A stretch of DNA of 33,043 nt, from the NCBI GenBank assembly GCA_003140665.1, contig PLKS01000272.1:1-33043 (forward strand), given 5' to 3'. The position numbers and the translations under genes were made by a program. This document shows positions 1,706-10,191 of this stretch, piece by piece (the stretch's first letter is position 1; every line of letters starts with the position of its first letter). Under the pieces are notes generated by a model that saw only the letters and a list, made by a program, of their open reading frames with translations, was not told the DNA's origin and ran no database searches. This DNA is from Opitutaceae bacterium. GTDB taxonomy: Bacteria; Verrucomicrobiota; Verrucomicrobiia; Opitutales; Opitutaceae.

Positions 1706-3076
1706 TCAGCCGGCGGCGAGTGGCAAAGTGAGGAGAAATGTCGTGCCGCGGGGTCCCGTGGACTCGAGCAGGAGCGTGGCCCCGATCTGCCGCGCAAGCA
1801 GCTGGCTGATCGCGAGGCCGAGGCCCGTGCCCCCCGGGCGGCCGGTGCGGCCCGGCTCGAAGAGATGCGGCCGCAACTCGTCGGAGATGCCGTGCCCCTC
1901 GTCGGAGACCGAGACGGTGGCGGTCTCGCCGCCGTTGCGGAAGGCGACCGCGACGCCGCTGCCCGCGGAGGTCGCGTCGATGGCATTCTGCACGAGGTTG
2001 CTGGTGATCAGGCAGAGCACCCCTCCCCGGTGGCTTCCGAGGCTGTGCTGGAATCCGCCGCTGACGCTCAGGCAAACGCCCTTTTTCACGGCGGCCGCCT
2101 CGTTGCGCTGGCGGACGATGGCGGCGAGCTCGTGCCCGCTGAGCTCAAACGAGGTGTGCGTGTCCGAATCGCCCAGGAGGGCGACCGCATGCTGGATGAT
2201 CGCCTGCATCCGGTCCGTGTACTCGGCGACGGTCTTCCAGTCGGAAGCCGCCTCGCAGCCCGAATCGCGGCCCGCGACCACTCCGCGAAGGCTGGCGACC
2301 GGTCCCTGAAGCCCGTGGATAAGGTGCGAGGTGATCTGGCCCAAGGCCGAGGCCTTTGCGGCAAGCGTCAGCTCAAAGTTCATCTGAACGAGCCGATCAT
2401 TGCGCTCCAGGATGACGCCCTGCGCGCTCCGGAGGCCGAGATAGGCCGCGGCCACGACGACCGCGATGAGCGCGGCCCCGATGCCGAGCGTGGCGGCGGT
2501 CTGGCGGTTGATGCGCTGGTCGATCAGGCTCAGCTCATCGGCAAGCGACCGGGCATAGATGTAGTACTGCGCGAAGCCGACGATTTTCCCGGGCTCGCGG
2601 CCATGGAGCGGAAGCAGCACCTCGAGCACCGGCGTGGCCTGCTGGGAGGGCGTCGCGGCGACGCCCGCGAAGTAGCGGCTGAGCGGAAACTCCGGGAAAA
2701 AGCGGCTTATCGGCTCGAACTTGAGCAGCCGGAGGTAGTCGTCCATGGGCAGCTCGGCAAAAATCAACGAGTCGGGGGCGTACCGCAGGGTGTGGCCCTT
2801 CTCGTCGAAGATGGCCACGCCGAGCATGTTTTCCTGCTGGGCGCTTTCCAGCACGGCGGCGAGCAGGTCGGACGGCCCGGTCGACGCGGCGTAGCGCTGG
2901 GAGAGCTGCCGCTGGGCCACGGGGAGCAGGACCGTGGCGTCGCGGTTGATGATCGTCTGGCGGATTTCCCCGCGAAGCTTGGAGCGGAAAAGCACGACCA
3001 TGGTGGCGAAGATGGCCACGAGCAGGCCCCCGGTGAGGATTGCCAGGATCGGAGGGCGCCAGAATCGCTGATTCAC
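1706..3076 (-). CDS. Membrane sensor histidine kinase
   Basis: 456 aa from a GTG start (MNQRFW...). N-terminal TM, extracytoplasmic region, second TM, H-box-like SHLIHGLQGPVASL, N box LVQNAIDATSAG, G boxes DEGHGISDEL and GGTGLGLAIS, C-terminal GPRGTTFLLTLPL. Confidence 0.92.
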   Translation of the reverse strand: MNQRFWRPPILAILTGGLLVAIFATMVVLFRSKLRGEIRQTIINRDATVLLPVAQRQLSQRYAASTGPSDLLAAVLESAQQENMLGVAIFDEKGHTLRYAPDSLIFAELPMDDYLRLLKFEPISRFFPEFPLSRYFAGVAATPSQQATPVLEVLLPLHGREPGKIVGFAQYYIYARSLADELSLIDQRINRQTAATLGIGAALIAVVVAAAYLGLRSAQGVILERNDRLVQMNFELTLAAKASALGQITSHLIHGLQGPVASLRGVVAGRDSGCEAASDWKTVAEYTDRMQAIIQHAVALLGDSDTHTSFELSGHELAAIVRQRNEAAAVKKGVCLSVSGGFQHSLGSHRGGVLCLITSNLVQNAIDATSAGSGVAVAFRNGGETATVSVSDEGHGISDELRPHLFEPGRTGRPGGTGLGLAISQLLARQIGATLLLESTGPRGTTFLLTLPLAAG

Positions 3077-3122: not shown

Positions 3123-4391
3123 TCAGGGGCGGTGGGTAAACAGGGGCTGTTCTATTTCAATATCCCTCACGCTGTCGTTGAATTGCCGGACAAGGGTCTC
3201 GGCCGACTGGCCGTCCGCCGGCTGGGGGTTTGCGGCGGAGAACTTGGCAAGCTCGCCGCGGATGCTTTCCGCATCCTGGTTGAGAGCCGCTATCTGGGCT
3301 GAATGTTCCATGTTGAAGGCGTCAATGGCCCTGCGCGTCTCGTCGCCCGGCGCCTGCGCCTTGATCTTCGCGGAAAGCTCGTCCTGAAGCGCCGCCCTCT
3401 CCCGCTGGTACTCGGCGATGTGCGCCGCCAGCTTGGGCGGCATCGACGACAGGTCCGGCATGCCGCCGGCAGGCTGGCCCGACAGGAAGCCGGGGGCGGC
3501 GATAAGCGTCGTATCGGAGATCGAATCGTTCCCCCTCGAGTCGACACCGAGGGACTCCGGGGCCCCGACCTCGACGTTCCCCTCGGGAAGCGTCTCGCGG
3601 ATCAGGCGTCCATGGGTCCCCTGGCCGAAATACTGGGATGCATACCTTGAGATCGCCGGGAGCACCTTTTCGAAGTCATTGCCCTGTTCGCGGATGCTGA
3701 AGCGGGTTTCCCATAGCAGCTTGTGTTTCCTCTGCTTCCACAGGACCTGGAAGTCGTAGGCCATCAACACCACGAAATAGCGGTTGTGCTCGATGTCGTC
3801 TACCAGGTCCTCGCGCCTTACGTTGTGGATCAATCCCATGCGGGGCGAATCCACGAGGAGCTCGGGACCGTACCCGAGGATCCCGGCGTTCTCATTGTCT
3901 ATGATGCCACCTTCGAAGCTGACGGGGGCCCAGCTGTCATAGTTGAGGTCCGACCCGTGAGTACCGATTGCCGAGCGGGCGTGGCTGTAGATGCTGAACA
4001 CGAAATTGGCCGAGCCGGGGTCGTTGGTCCCGCTGGTCATCCCCCAGTAGACCATGATCAGCAGCTTCGCCTTGTTGGGGTCCTTGGTCGGCGCGAAGCT
4101 CTGGCCCTTAAGCGGGCCCGCTATGGTCCGCGCGATGTCCATGAAACTCAGCATGTCGATGGTTTCATCGCTGATTGGCGCGCGGTAGTAGCCGCCTTCC
4201 CCGAAGGCGTAGGCCTCGGCCTGGAAGGTGCCGTCCGGGAGCTTTGTCCGGATATAGTCGTCGCTCACCTCCGAGTACACGGCCGTGATCTGGCCAACCG
4301 GTTCCCCGCGGGCGCCTGCTTGGTGGACGAACGGCGCCCCGTAGCCGAGCATGAGGAGCACCGCGGGTTTCAAGGGGCGTGAAAGGCTCAT
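3123..4391 (-). CDS. Secreted paralog 5 of a tandem uncharacterized family, with C-terminal coiled-coil-like extension
   Basis: 422 aa with signal peptide. Shares family motifs TAVYSEVSDDYIRTKLPDGTFQAEAYAFGEGGYY, ISDETIDMLSFMDIARTIAGPL, LLIMVYWGMT, NRYFVVLMAYDFQVLWKQRKHKLLWETRFSI and YASQYFGQ with the four genes upstream. Confidence 0.9.
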   Translation of the reverse strand: MSLSRPLKPAVLLMLGYGAPFVHQAGARGEPVGQITAVYSEVSDDYIRTKLPDGTFQAEAYAFGEGGYYRAPISDETIDMLSFMDIARTIAGPLKGQSFAPTKDPNKAKLLIMVYWGMTSGTNDPGSANFVFSIYSHARSAIGTHGSDLNYDSWAPVSFEGGIIDNENAGILGYGPELLVDSPRMGLIHNVRREDLVDDIEHNRYFVVLMAYDFQVLWKQRKHKLLWETRFSIREQGNDFEKVLPAISRYASQYFGQGTHGRLIRETLPEGNVEVGAPESLGVDSRGNDSISDTTLIAAPGFLSGQPAGGMPDLSSMPPKLAAHIAEYQRERAALQDELSAKIKAQAPGDETRRAIDAFNMEHSAQIAALNQDAESIRGELAKFSAANPQPADGQSAETLVRQFNDSVRDIEIEQPLFTHRP

Positions 4392-4503
4392 TTGGACATG
4401 AATTTGGAAATTGGATCGACTTGGGCCGCATTCCTTCGGGCGGAAAATAGGGGGGCTTCCGCCTGGGGCATCCGGCTCAGTCTTGCACGGGATCCCCCGA
4501 ATG

Positions 4504-4523
4504 ATTGCTCACCGCATGCCAAG
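4504..4523 (-). promoter_or_regulatory. Putative sigma-54 (-24/-12) promoter for gene 3123..4391
   Basis: Minus strand CTTGGCATGCGGTGAGCAAT: TTGGCA at -24 and GG-N10-GC spacing. 18/20 identical to the element at 8593..8612. 113 nt from the start codon. Confidence 0.62.
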
Positions 4524-4650
4524 TCTCCAGACGATAAGGTAATCCATTGATCGTAAGTTGATTAAGCGGGTTGGTTCGGGCAGAAACCCAGCGTACCGAA
4601 GCCCTGCTGGGGTGCTGCAGCAAACTTTGGCGCGCCCGGCCGGGTTCAAT

Positions 4651-4666
4651 TGGGTGTAGGTTCCCA
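4651..4666. promoter_or_regulatory. Candidate activator (UAS) site, imperfect inverted repeat
   Basis: TGGGTGTAGGTTCCCA, with TGGG...CCCA ends. 15/16 identical to 8741..8756 and at the same spacing (128 vs 129 bp) to its promoter element. Confidence 0.5.
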
Positions 4667-4708
4667 CGTCGTTGCCACCATCGCCGGTCCCGAAGGCGCA
4701 GCGGCGCG

Positions 4709-5638
4709 TCATTTTGAAGGTGCCCCGACGACGCCGAGCGAAGTCGGCTCGCCCACCTCGACCTTTCCCTCACGGATCCTCATCCGCGACAACCCATGGC
4801 TGTCCTGGCCGAAGTACTGCGACGCATTCTGGGCCATCACGAGCAGGGCCTTGTCGAATTGATTGCGGCGCTCATCGATGCTGAATCGCGTCTCCCAAAG
4901 CAATTTGTGCTTCTTCTGTTTCCACAGGAGCTGGAAATCATAGGCCATGAGCACCACGAAATACCGGTTCCCCTCGATTTCCGCTATCAACTCATCCCGG
5001 TGGTACTTCATCGGGGTCCTTCGGGCCTCGAGTCCGAAATCGGTCCCGATCACCCCTTCGGAATCGTATCCCAGCATGGCGGCGTTCTTGAAATCGATGA
5101 GGTCGCGTTGGCGGTTCTCCATGTTGAGCTGCACCGTCGCGGCCGAAACCTCCGACATCACGTCATCCTGGATCTGGGGCGGCTCGGGGTTCTGCTTGTT
5201 CATGACTCGGCTGAGATCGGCCTGGGCCATGCTAAAGTTGCTGTACGCGACCGAGTCTGAGGTCGGGCCGGGAACCACGGTTGTCCCCCAATAGAGCATG
5301 ATGAGCAGCCTCGTCTTTTCCGGGTCCCTCGCCGGAAGATATTTCTGGGCCGCCAGCGGGGCCGCGATGACCCGCGCCACGTCCATGAAGCTGAGCTTGT
5401 CGATCGTCGCGTCGCTGATTTCACCCGCCCATCTGCCCCCTTCCCCAAAGCTGTAATACTCCGGCGGGAATGAGCCGTCGGGCAGCTTGGTGCGGACGTA
5501 GTCGCTGCTGACCTTCGAGGACACGGCGGTTATGCCCTCAACGCCTTCGCCCGCCCGGGCGACGGGTAGCGCGCCCAGCAGGATGCCGCAGCCGGCAAGG
5601 AACAAGTCTCTCAGCCGGCGCGCACGTGATGATCTCAT
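4709..5638 (-). CDS. Secreted paralog 4 of tandem uncharacterized family
   Basis: ATG at 5636-5638 (MRSSRARRLRDLFLAGCGILLGALPVARAGEGVEGITAV...), 309 aa. The longer ORF to 5884 is an N-terminal overextension. Overlaps the stop of the upstream gene by 4 nt (ATGA). Confidence 0.9.
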   Translation of the reverse strand: MRSSRARRLRDLFLAGCGILLGALPVARAGEGVEGITAVSSKVSSDYVRTKLPDGSFPPEYYSFGEGGRWAGEISDATIDKLSFMDVARVIAAPLAAQKYLPARDPEKTRLLIMLYWGTTVVPGPTSDSVAYSNFSMAQADLSRVMNKQNPEPPQIQDDVMSEVSAATVQLNMENRQRDLIDFKNAAMLGYDSEGVIGTDFGLEARRTPMKYHRDELIAEIEGNRYFVVLMAYDFQLLWKQKKHKLLWETRFSIDERRNQFDKALLVMAQNASQYFGQDSHGLSRMRIREGKVEVGEPTSLGVVGAPSK

Positions 5639-6561
5639 TTGCTTGGGTTCTCCGTCGTTGGGGCAGCGGCCTTCCCGGGGCCGAACAGGTATTCGACGAG
5701 CGTCGGCTTGCCCACGTCGACCCGCCCCTCGGGCACCCGGATCCTCAGGAGTCCCTTGCTGGGTTGCCCGAAATACCTGGAGGCGTACTCCGCCATCACC
5801 GGCAGCGCCCGGTCGAACTGGTTGCGGCGCTCGTTGATGCTGAAGCGGGTTTCCCAAAGCAGCTTGTGCTTCTTCTGCTTCCACATCAGCTGGAAATCAT
5901 ATGCCATCAGCACGACGAAATACCGGTTTTCCTCGATCTCCTCGATCAGCTCCTGCCTCTTCGCCCCGAACGCGGTTCCACGGATGTTGTTCCCGAAATC
6001 GGTGCCGATCATCCCTTCGGCGTCGTATCCCAGCATGCAGGCGTTCTGGAAATCGAGCCGGTCACGCATCTCGTTGTACATCGCCATGATCGTCAAAGCG
6101 GACGACAGCTCCGCCATCGATGCGTCGCTCCCGCTGATGTTGGCCTGCGCCGCGCTCAGTTCGTTGTAGGCGATCGAGTCGGAAGACGGCCCGGGAACCG
6201 CGGTCGTTCCCCAGTAAAGCATGATGATGAGCTTTGTTCGGCTTGGGTCCGTTGCCGGAAGATAATTCTGCTCCGACAGCGGTGCGGCGACGACCCGCGC
6301 CACGTCCTCGAAGCGGAGCTGGTCGATCGTGGCGTCGCTTATCTCGCCACCCCAATGTCCCCCTTTTCCAAAGGCATAGTATTCCGGCTGGAAGGAGCCG
6401 CCGGGCAGCTTGGTGCGGACGTAGTCGCTGCTCACCCTCGAGACAACGGCGGTGACGCCGTCGACGCCATCCGCAGCGCGGGCGGGCGATAGGGCGGCCA
6501 GCAGCGCGGCGCCGCTGGCAAGGATCAAGGCCTTCCTTCGGAACGCGCGCGATGCCTTCAC
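5635..6561 (-). CDS. Secreted paralog 3 of tandem uncharacterized family
   Basis: GTG at 6559-6561 (MKASRAFRRKALILASGAALLAALSPARAADGVDGVTAV...), 308 aa. Start overlaps the stop of the next upstream gene (GTGA). Confidence 0.9.
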   Translation of the reverse strand: MKASRAFRRKALILASGAALLAALSPARAADGVDGVTAVVSRVSSDYVRTKLPGGSFQPEYYAFGKGGHWGGEISDATIDQLRFEDVARVVAAPLSEQNYLPATDPSRTKLIIMLYWGTTAVPGPSSDSIAYNELSAAQANISGSDASMAELSSALTIMAMYNEMRDRLDFQNACMLGYDAEGMIGTDFGNNIRGTAFGAKRQELIEEIEENRYFVVLMAYDFQLMWKQKKHKLLWETRFSINERRNQFDRALPVMAEYASRYFGQPSKGLLRIRVPEGRVDVGKPTLVEYLFGPGKAAAPTTENPSK

Positions 6562-7541
6562 TTGCTTCCGGTTCCCTTGGCCGGGGCTGCTGAATTCTCG
6601 GTTCCGAACGGGAGCTCGATGACCGTCGGCTCGCCGATGTCGACGCGTCCCTCCGGGAACCGGGTTCTCACCAGTCCATTGGTCGGCTGCCCGAAATACC
6701 TCGAGGCGTATTGCGCCATCGCCGGCAGCGCCTTGTCGAATGCGTTGTGCCTTTCGCTTATGCTGAAACGCGTTTCCCAGAGCAGCCTGTGCTTCTTGTT
6801 CTTCCACATGAGCTGGAAATCGTATGCCATCAGCACCACGAAATACCGGTTCTCCCGGATCTCTGCATATAAGTCGTCCCGGTCCATGCTGAGCGCCGTT
6901 CCCCTGACGTAGTTTCCCCTCTCCGTTCCTATCAGCCCCGGGGAGTCGTAGCCAAGCATCAGGGCATTGGCAAAATCGGTCCGGTCGTTCTGGCGGTTCT
7001 CCATGTTGAGCATCACCGTGGCCGCTGACATTTGATCGATCGCGGCATCGGCAGCCGCGCCGGCGACAACGATTTTCTTGCGTGGGTCGCTGGTGGACGG
7101 AACCAGATACTTGTTGAGGTTGTCTTGCGCCACCTGGAACTGATCGATCGCCACCGAGTCGGAGGTTGGCGCGGGAACCGCGGTGGTCCCCCAGTAGACC
7201 ATTATGAGGAGCCTTGTCTTGTCCGGGTCGGTTGCCGGGAGGTATTTCTGATGAGCAAGTGGCGCGGCTATGACCCGCGCCACGTCGATGAAATGGAGCT
7301 TGTCGATCGTGGCGTCGCTAATTTCGCCAGCCCACCTTCCTCCCTCCCCAAAGGAGTAAGATTCAGCCTGGAACGAGCCGTCGGGCAGCCTGGTGCGAAC
7401 GTAGCCGTCGCTCACCTTCGAGGCCACGGCCGTGATGCCCTCGACGTCTTCGGTCGCGAGGGCGGGAGACGCCGAGCCCAGCAGCACGCCATTGCCGGCG
7501 AGGAGAAGGGCTTTCAGCTGAAACGCACGCGATGCCTTCAT
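6558..7541 (-). CDS. Secreted paralog 2 of tandem uncharacterized family
   Basis: 327 aa, signal peptide MKASRAFQLKALLLAGNGVLLGSASPALA; same conserved N- and C-terminal blocks; ATGA overlap with the upstream paralog. Confidence 0.92.
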   Translation of the reverse strand: MKASRAFQLKALLLAGNGVLLGSASPALATEDVEGITAVASKVSDGYVRTRLPDGSFQAESYSFGEGGRWAGEISDATIDKLHFIDVARVIAAPLAHQKYLPATDPDKTRLLIMVYWGTTAVPAPTSDSVAIDQFQVAQDNLNKYLVPSTSDPRKKIVVAGAAADAAIDQMSAATVMLNMENRQNDRTDFANALMLGYDSPGLIGTERGNYVRGTALSMDRDDLYAEIRENRYFVVLMAYDFQLMWKNKKHRLLWETRFSISERHNAFDKALPAMAQYASRYFGQPTNGLVRTRFPEGRVDIGEPTVIELPFGTENSAAPAKGTGSK

Positions 7542-8482
7542 TTGCCTCCGGCCTCCTTCCCCGGCACTGGCGGCGTGTCGGCCCCGAACAGGAATTCGAC
7601 GAGGGTGGGCTCACCGATGTCGACGCGTCCCTCCGGGAACCGCGTTCTTACCAGCCCATGGGTGGCCTGTCCGAAGTACCGGGACGCGTACTGCGCCATC
7701 GCCGGCAGGGCCTTGTCGAATTGGTTGTGCAGCTCATTGATGCTGAATCGCGTCTCCCAAAGAAGCTTGTGCTTCTTCTGCTTCCACAGGAGCTGGAAGT
7801 CATAGGCCATGATCACGACGAAGTACCGGTTCCCCTCGATCTCGGCGACCTCGTCGTTCGTGCGCCACCCGAGCGCCGTGTGCGAGAGGTACTTCCCATG
7901 GTCCGTCTCGACCAGCCCGTCGTAGTCGTAGCCGATCATCTTCGCGTTCCGGAAATTGAGGAGGTCCCTCTGCCGGTTCGCTATCGCAAGCACGTGGAGC
8001 CCGGCCGTGAGGACGGCGTTGGCTTCATCGGGCTGCCCCTCATCCATGAGCAGCCGGTATTCCTCGAGGGCCTGGTAATATTCCTGGTACAGGGGCGACA
8101 ACTGCGGCGGGTCGGGAACCGCCGTCGTCCCCCAGTAGACCATGATCAGGAGCTTCGTATTGTTTGGGTCCCTCGCGGGCATGTATTTCTGGCCGGCGAG
8201 CGGCTCCGCGATGACCCGGGCCACGTCCATGAAATGAAGCTTGTCGATCGTTGCGTCGCTTATCTGGCCGCCCCAGGTCCCCCCTTCCCCGAACGAATAG
8301 TACTCCGGCTGGAACGAGCCGTCGGGAAGCTTGGTCCGGAAGTAGTCGTCGCTCACCTTTGACGCCACGGCGGTCACGCCCTCGATGCCCTCGATCGCGC
8401 GGACGGGCGACGGGACGCCGAGCACGATGGCGCCGCACGCCAGCAACCCGGCTTTCCTCCGAGGCGTGGGGGATGCCTTCAT
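7538..8482 (-). CDS. Secreted paralog 1 of tandem uncharacterized family
   Basis: 314 aa, signal peptide MKASPTPRRKAGLLACGAIVLGVPSPVRA; conserved blocks as in the other four. First gene of the coupled cluster. Confidence 0.92.
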   Translation of the reverse strand: MKASPTPRRKAGLLACGAIVLGVPSPVRAIEGIEGVTAVASKVSDDYFRTKLPDGSFQPEYYSFGEGGTWGGQISDATIDKLHFMDVARVIAEPLAGQKYMPARDPNNTKLLIMVYWGTTAVPDPPQLSPLYQEYYQALEEYRLLMDEGQPDEANAVLTAGLHVLAIANRQRDLLNFRNAKMIGYDYDGLVETDHGKYLSHTALGWRTNDEVAEIEGNRYFVVIMAYDFQLLWKQKKHKLLWETRFSINELHNQFDKALPAMAQYASRYFGQATHGLVRTRFPEGRVDIGEPTLVEFLFGADTPPVPGKEAGGK

Positions 8483-8592
8483 GGCGCCTTGAGACTGGGA
8501 TGGGGGGTCGACATCGATTCACGGGCTTTCCCGGTTGGGCGCGGGTCCATCTGCAGGGACACACGCGGCGGGAATTCCTTCGTCGCGCACCT

Positions 8593-8612
8593 ATTGCTCG
8601 CCGCGTGCCAAG
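8593..8612 (-). promoter_or_regulatory. Putative sigma-54 (-24/-12) promoter for the coupled paralog cluster
   Basis: Minus strand CTTGGCACGCGGCGAGCAAT: exact TTGGCACG -24 box and GG-N10-GC spacing to a GAGCA -12 box (TTGCA expected). 111 nt from the start codon at 8482. Adjacent to a sigma-54 activator gene. Confidence 0.68.
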
Positions 8613-8740
8613 CCCTCCGGTCCTCCGGCCAATGCACTGATGCCACGTTGGTTGGGTGAACCAAATCGTCAAACCCCGCCATTGCCGGGCGTTGCTTTGG
8701 GTGGCTGCCGCAAATTTCTGGCGTCGGCTGCCGCCCCGTT

Positions 8741-8756
8741 TGGGCGTAGGTTCCCA
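8741..8756. promoter_or_regulatory. Candidate activator (UAS) site, imperfect inverted repeat
   Basis: TGGGCGTAGGTTCCCA, near-identical to 4651..4666, 129 bp upstream of the promoter-like element. Confidence 0.5.
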
Positions 8757-8775
8757 AGTCTTCCCACGCGAGAAG

Positions 8776-10191
8776 CTAGGGGGCCGTTTTCCCGCCGGGG
8801 AGGCGGTAGCGGACAAAATCGCGGGTCACGCCCAGGCGGCGCGCCGCCGCGGAAATGTTGTTGCCCGTCTCGCGCAGCGCCTCGGCAATCAGCTCGTCAA
8901 CCGTGGCATCGAGCGAGAAACCGGACTCGGGCATGCGCCATGCCGGGTTGCGCCAGCCGCCCGAGAGCGGGGTGGCCGGGGCGCCCAGCGCGCCGAAGTC
9001 GAAGGCCGTGCTTCCGCCGAAGATGACGGCCCGCTCGATCTCGTGGGCGAGCTCGCGCACGTTGCCCCGCCAGGGCTGCGCGAGCAGGCGGGCCTCGCCC
9101 TCAGGCGCTATCGTCAGCCCCTTCAGCCTGTGCCGCGCGGCGATCTTCGCGAGCAGGTGGCGGGCGAGCGGCAGGATGTCGGTGCCGCGGTCGCGCAACG
9201 GCGGAAGCGTGATCCGCAGGAGGTTCAGGCGATGGAAAAGGTCCTCGCGAAACACGCCCTGCCGCACGAGGTCATCGAGGGGGCGGTTGCTGGCGGCGAC
9301 CACTCGGACATCCACCGAGATCTCGCGCGTGCCGCCGAGCCTGCGGATGTTGCCCTCCTCGACGGCGGTCAGGACCTTGGCCTGCGTCGCCAGGGCCAGC
9401 GAGCCCACCTCATCGAGGAACAGCGTGCCGCCGTCGGCGGCCTCAAAGAGGCCGATCCTGGCCCGCTTCGCGTCGGTGAACGCCCCGCGCTCGTGCCCGA
9501 AGAGCTCCGCCTCGGCGAGGGCGTCGGGCAGCGCCGCGCAGTTCAGGGTGACGAACGGTTCAGCCTGCCTGGGCCCCTGGCGATGCAGCCAGCGGGCGAG
9601 AACGCTCTTTCCCGTCCCGGTTTCGCCCTCGATGAGGACGGGCGGCAGCCGGTGCTCGAGGCGGCGCTCGGCCGCGACAATGGTGTCGAGCTGCGAGCGC
9701 ACACCCCGGAGGCTCTCTCCGAAAAACACCTGGTCGGCGGCCGCGCCGGTCTCCGCGGCGCGATGCTCGGCGCGGCGAGCGGCGATGCGCTGGCTGCGGC
9801 ACCGGGCGAAGGCGAGCGGCAGTTCCTCGGGTTCGAACGGCTTGGACAGGTAGTCGCCCGCGCCCAGGCGGATGGCCTCGACGGCCTGCTTGATGCCGCC
9901 GAAGGCCGTCATCACGACGACGCCGGTGTTCTCCGAGAACGCGCCCTCGCGCAGCAGGCCCAGCACCTCGCCGTCAGGCAGGTGCAGGTCCACCAGCGCG
10001 AATTCGAACCGAAGGTCGCGCAGCTGCCGCCGGGCGTCCTCGAGGCGGCCCGCCTCGGTCACCTCGGCGCCCAGTTGCCGCAGATACGCGGCGAGGCGCT
10101 TGCGGAACGGCGGATCGTCCTCGAGCAGGAGAATCTCGCAGCCCGGCGATAGCGCCGTTCCATCGAACGATGAACTTGGGGTGACTGACAT
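8776..10191 (-). CDS. NtrC-family sigma-54-dependent response regulator
   Basis: 471 aa. Receiver domain (LLLEDDPPFRKRL, ALVDLHLPDGEVL, SKPF), AAA+ domain (Walker A GETGTGKS, GHERGAFTDA, GGTLFLDEVG, FREDLFHRLN), Fis-type HTH (ALRETGNNISAAARRLGVTRDFVRYRL). Confidence 0.96.
   Translation of the reverse strand: MSVTPSSSFDGTALSPGCEILLLEDDPPFRKRLAAYLRQLGAEVTEAGRLEDARRQLRDLRFEFALVDLHLPDGEVLGLLREGAFSENTGVVVMTAFGGIKQAVEAIRLGAGDYLSKPFEPEELPLAFARCRSQRIAARRAEHRAAETGAAADQVFFGESLRGVRSQLDTIVAAERRLEHRLPPVLIEGETGTGKSVLARWLHRQGPRQAEPFVTLNCAALPDALAEAELFGHERGAFTDAKRARIGLFEAADGGTLFLDEVGSLALATQAKVLTAVEEGNIRRLGGTREISVDVRVVAASNRPLDDLVRQGVFREDLFHRLNLLRITLPPLRDRGTDILPLARHLLAKIAARHRLKGLTIAPEGEARLLAQPWRGNVRELAHEIERAVIFGGSTAFDFGALGAPATPLSGGWRNPAWRMPESGFSLDATVDELIAEALRETGNNISAAARRLGVTRDFVRYRLPGGKTAP

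Follow-up and report, generated by a model that had tools for sequence, protein, structure and literature searches.

In an uncultured Opitutaceae bacterium from soil or peat, five tandem genes for secreted paralogues appear to serve as the output of a system for envelope signalling. The reading we favour, to which we give a probability of roughly 0.6, is a sigma-54 two-component system with the array as its output, in which paralogue E perhaps serves as a sensor accessory and the products probably form rings. The window, meaning the whole stretch of DNA analysed (33,043 nucleotides), comes from a fragmented draft genome (G000; 278 contigs, 87% complete, 3.85 Mb). Five consecutive related open reading frames on the minus strand, A to E, fill positions 3123–8482, and a Pfam scan identified a sigma-54 response regulator (8776–10191) and a histidine kinase (1706–3076) flanking them. 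The features are as follows, with start codons of the window's reading frames assigned by script.

1706..3076, minus strand: sensor histidine kinase, starting 46 bases past E
3123..4391, minus strand: paralogue E, 422 aa, array domain plus C-terminal helical domain
4506..4522, minus strand: sigma-54 -24/-12-like promoter of E, TTGGCATGCGGTGAGCA
4607..4624, minus strand: enhancer-like upstream site II of E, TTTGCTGCAGCACCCCAG
4650..4666, minus strand: enhancer-like upstream site I of E, TGGGAACCTACACCCAA
4709..5638, minus strand: paralogue D, 309 aa, ATGA overlap with C
5635..6561, minus strand: paralogue C, 308 aa, GTG start, GTGA overlap with B
6558..7541, minus strand: paralogue B, 327 aa, ATGA overlap with A
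7538..8482, minus strand: paralogue A, 314 aa, first gene of the A–D operon
8595..8611, minus strand: sigma-54 -24/-12-like promoter of A–D, TTGGCACGCGGCGAGCA
8696..8714, minus strand: enhancer-like upstream site II of A, TTTGCGGCAGCCACCCAAA
8740..8756, minus strand: enhancer-like upstream site I of A, TGGGAACCTACGCCCAA
8776..10191, minus strand: sigma-54 response regulator with receiver, AAA+ (GAFTDA) and Fis-type HTH

The original prediction of five consecutive minus-strand secreted paralogues was borne out: the reading frames were confirmed, signal peptides are present, B to E share 61, 60, 58 and 45% protein identity with A, far above chance, and the scaffold quoted as common to all five is right. 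At the sequence level the family is also, as had been claimed, an unrecognised one, with 0 Pfam and 0 NCBIfam families matched by A–E and only chance matches in PDB sequence searches with the array proteins. That account did not include the C-terminal helical extension of E, the flanking kinase and regulator pair or the two promoter-like regions. Owing to the ATGA and GTGA overlaps, A–D are probably translationally coupled, and E is separated from D by a 317-base gap that holds its own promoter-like site. Among the paralogues, pN/pS of 0.41–0.66 and dS of about 0.75–1.2 show A–E, by sequence divergence, to be long-standing copies kept by purifying selection. The family often duplicates in tandem, as would be expected if the array were a recent or neutral amplification with no special function; nevertheless, a recent amplification was rejected by dS, and pN/pS together with the conservation of the promoter-like sites and the locus across genera makes this explanation highly improbable.

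Regulation of the array by the two-component pair is well supported from sequence. The regulator carries receiver, AAA+ and Fis domains and is accompanied by a partner kinase and by rpoN, which was found in the host genome as a partial gene cut by a contig end; this is the composition of an NtrC-type sigma-54 two-component system. Its loop reads GAFTDA, the canonical form being GAFTGA, and GAFTDA is common to 28 of 34 related regulators. Two hydrophobic segments of the kinase (about residues 11–29 and 196–214) enclose a probable periplasmic sensor. Both promoter regions contain a -24/-12 element with upstream activator sites, the sequence signature of a sigma-54 promoter, from which we infer sigma-54 activity at these sites, and TGGGAACCTACRCCCAA stands 144–145 bases upstream of the -24/-12 sites of A and E. 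Transcription from the E promoter probably reads through into the kinase gene.

Subsequently, the -24/-12 pattern, which had been taken from the two sites in the window ahead of any genome search, was compared with the rest of the genome and with related loci. The exact pattern TTGGCAYGNNNNGAGCA has three occurrences in the 3.85 Mb genome, each before a family gene, against an expected count of about 0.2 (a hand estimate by simple counting), and the best three genome matches of the upstream-site pattern fall at the same three places. When one mismatch was allowed in TTGGCAYGNNNNGAGCA, a reversed control matched about as often as the pattern itself. Of 67 family genes, 8 carry a strict -24/-12 motif in their first 150 upstream bases, compared with 0.19 expected from motif density in the loci, and the controls over the same 67 regions gave 0 for the reversed pattern and 0 for the opposite strand; these regions include tandem copies and related sequences, and the counts overstate independence because the pattern was taken from the window first and the tested genes are related. 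The useful confirmation comes from the copy on contig C102 and the four promoters of genome G008. Seven promoters from the two genomes align, each with two upstream sites. A single regulon comprising the whole family was rejected, most copies having no promoter site. Two side observations concern these sites: the near-match TTGGCGCGAATGGAGCA occurs twice on another host contig (G000:C129, 9214 and 11096), 1.9 kb apart, with no family gene in the fetched stretch; and the C102 regulon copy (L110, 5872–8133) lies just upstream of, and on the same strand as, a dipeptidyl peptidase IV-like gene, with which it may be co-transcribed.

The relation of E to the kinase emerges from comparison with related loci. 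In about 20 of these the same regulator/kinase pair encloses a secreted helical protein of two or three repeats, and no array protein lies between regulator and kinase in these ordinary loci. The AlphaFold model of E comprises the array domain, a low-confidence linker and a helical domain (about residues 315–413), and the final 100 residues of E share homology with the last repeat of the helical protein (best 5.7e-23). Moreover, a fusion of array and helical domains stands directly before the kinase in five other loci (L033, L036, L037, L161 and L163); the order regulator, array domain(s), fusion, kinase is preserved whole or in part in these five and the window, and L061 shows the regulator end of an array-type locus only. 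The kinases of the six array loci group together as a single clade (support 95/96), on which basis the arrangement probably arose once. The host also has a second, ordinary locus (L091, 7731–12280, G000:C78) consisting of regulator, helical protein and kinase, with a divergent -24/-12-like site. Distant regulator/kinase pairs around short helical secreted proteins (L102–L109), which served as context only, include several with proteins resembling outer-membrane barrels; most have a -24/-12-like site, and none was found between regulator and kinase in L105.

Since sister loci encode the helical domain as a secreted protein in its own right next to the kinase, E probably couples the array assembly to kinase activity. 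The placement of the array between kinase and regulator, and the fusion of E to a domain that elsewhere adjoins the kinase, would equally suit co-sensors, that is, array proteins that bind a periplasmic signal and present it to the kinase, with array expression tuning sensitivity. We regard this as unlikely, given that about ten more clear host copies lie on other contigs with no regulator pair in the stretches examined and that ordinary loci carry the regulator pair without an intervening array protein.

To place the array proteins among known folds, we modelled A, using a 70-row alignment, and E with AlphaFold. The model of A (pLDDT 86) predicts a two-halved alpha/beta core broken by a helical insert. 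Foldseek searches of the PDB with this model returned TraT (E 3.1e-6, probability 1.00), the DUF4136 structure 4f54 (2.9e-3) and PelC (7.3e-3), and the model of E yielded the same match list (TraT E 3e-5, probability 1.00); the best hits to DUF4136, TraT and PelC each had probabilities of 0.97–1.00 in the models of the two paralogues. TMt to PelC was 0.56 for A and 0.59 for E, and 0.34–0.43 for TraT and DUF4136. Query-normalised TM-scores were low (0.21–0.29) owing to the helical insert and extra parts, and the fold match thus leaves the insert and the ring interface unaccounted for. A viral fold library gave no match for the array model. By these models the array core is predicted to have the TraT/DUF4136/PelC fold. 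TraT is a ring of 10 (PMC11733297), PelC is a periplasmic ring of 12 on an outer-membrane barrel (PMC12141448), and PqiC, a structural homologue of PelC, is an octamer (PMC10897342); by this predicted fold, the array proteins probably form rings as well.

Sequence comparison places the family outside the named ones. Among 70 relatives scanned against Pfam there was no accepted family, one of the 70 touching DUF4136 at E 0.07; a profile-profile comparison of DUF4136 with the array family (hhalign) gave P 0.053, a weak alignment at the same place of the fold. The closest approach was the divergent array protein of L163 (genome G193), which scored E 1.5e-7 and 32.4 bits against PF13590, with a cut-off of 32.8. 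None of the window proteins matched DUF4136 or TraT significantly by sequence, and TraT PF05818 had no match in G000. Membership in DUF4136 was rejected, as neither the window proteins nor the L163 relative reached the Pfam gathering score, and membership in TraT was rejected for want of a PF05818 match and with a lipobox-like signal in only 7 of 65 family members; 60 of the 65 show the A-x-A pattern of signal peptidase I, a crude indicator. As a side observation, the L163 protein (7631–9940) combines two array-domain regions with a helical domain and, being near the DUF4136 cut-off, offers a bridge for profile building.

The PelC matches and weaker ones to LptE raise the question whether the family assists export across the outer membrane or the transport of lipids, under export-related stress control, all the more as PqiC, PelC and LptE are structural homologues (PMC10897342). 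However, no export barrel or polysaccharide genes were found by Pfam in the rest of the window, whose other named genes encode a short-chain dehydrogenase, RNase II, MFS, cation efflux, CNNM/CorC, UPF0047 and ACT domain proteins, and we consider such a role improbable.

Paralogue A consists of a signal peptide followed by a core that is interrupted by a variable helical insert (about residues 124–216). Within the mature protein, variability peaks in the segment that separates the core halves, where mean entropy is 2.83 compared with 1.48 and 1.19 in the halves themselves. This distribution of variation favours a diversified secreted binding set, in which the proteins act separately and each insert binds a different ligand or partner (a surface polymer, a phage, a plasmid or a neighbouring cell), as do the abundance of scattered and tandem copies within single genomes, including a run of nine in G329 without a regulator pair, and the view that TraT specificity also resides in poorly conserved parts (PMC11733297). 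On the other hand, the insert has no recognisable ligand-binding fold, the common regulatory unit suggests a coordinated dose, and the strong conservation of the core suggests a shared interface; we therefore hold separate binding proteins to be a possibility, yet a rather doubtful one. The original prediction had offered an envelope-located assembly or a diversified binding set. Envelope location and some form of assembly gain support from the signal peptides and from a predicted core like those of the TraT decamer, the PelC dodecamer and DUF4136, and diversification is plausible in view of the variable segment between the core halves.

The family extends well beyond the window. Profile searches of the host genome gave 20–22 hits, which reduce to some 15 clear genes, five of them in the window and about ten elsewhere in the assembly on other contigs, and a few distant ones. 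Hits occurred in 31 genomes of a 60-genome sample of relatives, often several in each, and in 21 of 394 genomes of the phylum, all of the same family or order; within this 394-genome sample the family is, by sequence search, confined to Opitutales. An exception is the L055 contig, binned as Acidobacteriaceae, whose family genes may reflect a binning error or transfer. Most positive genomes carry more than one family gene, several of them have tandem copies, and one kinase/regulator setting is common to six array loci, contrary to a mostly single-copy family with unrelated neighbours, which was to have counted against the original prediction. Many copies are solitary, without a nearby kinase or regulator, and tandem arrays also occur without the regulator pair; the longest (L179, 8019–17124, G329:C1) runs to nine family genes, and neither a regulator pair nor a -24/-12 site was found in the fetched stretch. 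We found no description of such a system in the open-licence literature.

In the sigma-54 output reading that we prefer, the kinase would read an envelope or extracellular signal via its probable periplasmic domain and phosphorylate the regulator, which would bind the paired sites about 95–145 bases upstream of the -24/-12 promoters and turn on A–D, E (probably along with the kinase gene) and one or more distant copies, among them that on contig C102. Exported via signal peptidase I, the proteins would fold as TraT/PelC/DUF4136-like domains and probably assemble at the outer membrane into rings, homo- or hetero-oligomeric, in which the variable inserts would determine specificity for a partner or ligand. 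Through its helical domain, E would then feed back from the assembly to the kinase, comparable to the reported feedback of ZraP on ZraSR. More speculatively, and with little expectation that it holds, the paralogues might form mixed rings whose composition the kinase reads through the helical tail of E; one sigma-54 system would then both assemble and sense a variable envelope machine. If the assembly is real, a two-component system controls, and maybe monitors, envelope rings of multiple paralogues. The analysis places an unannotated, expanding Opitutales family in a known fold class, with a testable regulator, promoter and partner domain, among soil bacteria whose regulation is little known.

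Of the known systems, TraT (PF05818), a decameric surface exclusion lipoprotein, is the best Foldseek match of both modelled paralogues, and the resemblance extends to export, to assembly at the outer membrane as proposed here, and to an alpha/beta core combined with a helical part. It differs in that there is no sequence match, TM-scores are low, the array proteins are mostly of the signal peptidase I type and no conjugation genes were seen in the window. DUF4136 (PF13590) is linked by the fold match to 4f54 and by the L163 protein just under the Pfam cut-off, whereas the array proteins have a long extra helical insert and tandem copies inside a two-component locus. PelC, with its relatives PqiC and LptE, shares the predicted fold (TMt 0.56–0.59 to PelC); however, no Pel genes were seen, and the array proteins are larger and differently regulated. 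Both TraT and PelC have a lipobox, unlike most members of the array family. PrsK/PrsR of PEP-CTERM systems likewise place secreted proteins under sigma-54 control, and their NCBIfam models head the kinase ranking (1.2e-19) and come high in that of the regulator, but score far under the curated cut-offs (70 versus 300 and 284 versus 503 bits). ZraS and ZraR models are also among the NCBIfam hits of kinase and regulator, and ZraP is named as a repressor of ZraSR in the title of a cited reference. The array proteins have no ZraPSR counterpart, and membership of the helical domain among the CpxP/ZraP-type accessories (LTXXQ or Metal_resist) was rejected, with no LTXXQ match and just one Metal_resist match, which was below threshold and came from a distant locus (E 0.24; 12 bits, cut-off 29.2). 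The comparison with ZraPSR is therefore an analogy of layout, not of membership: in both, a sigma-54 activator, a kinase and a secreted helical protein are encoded together.
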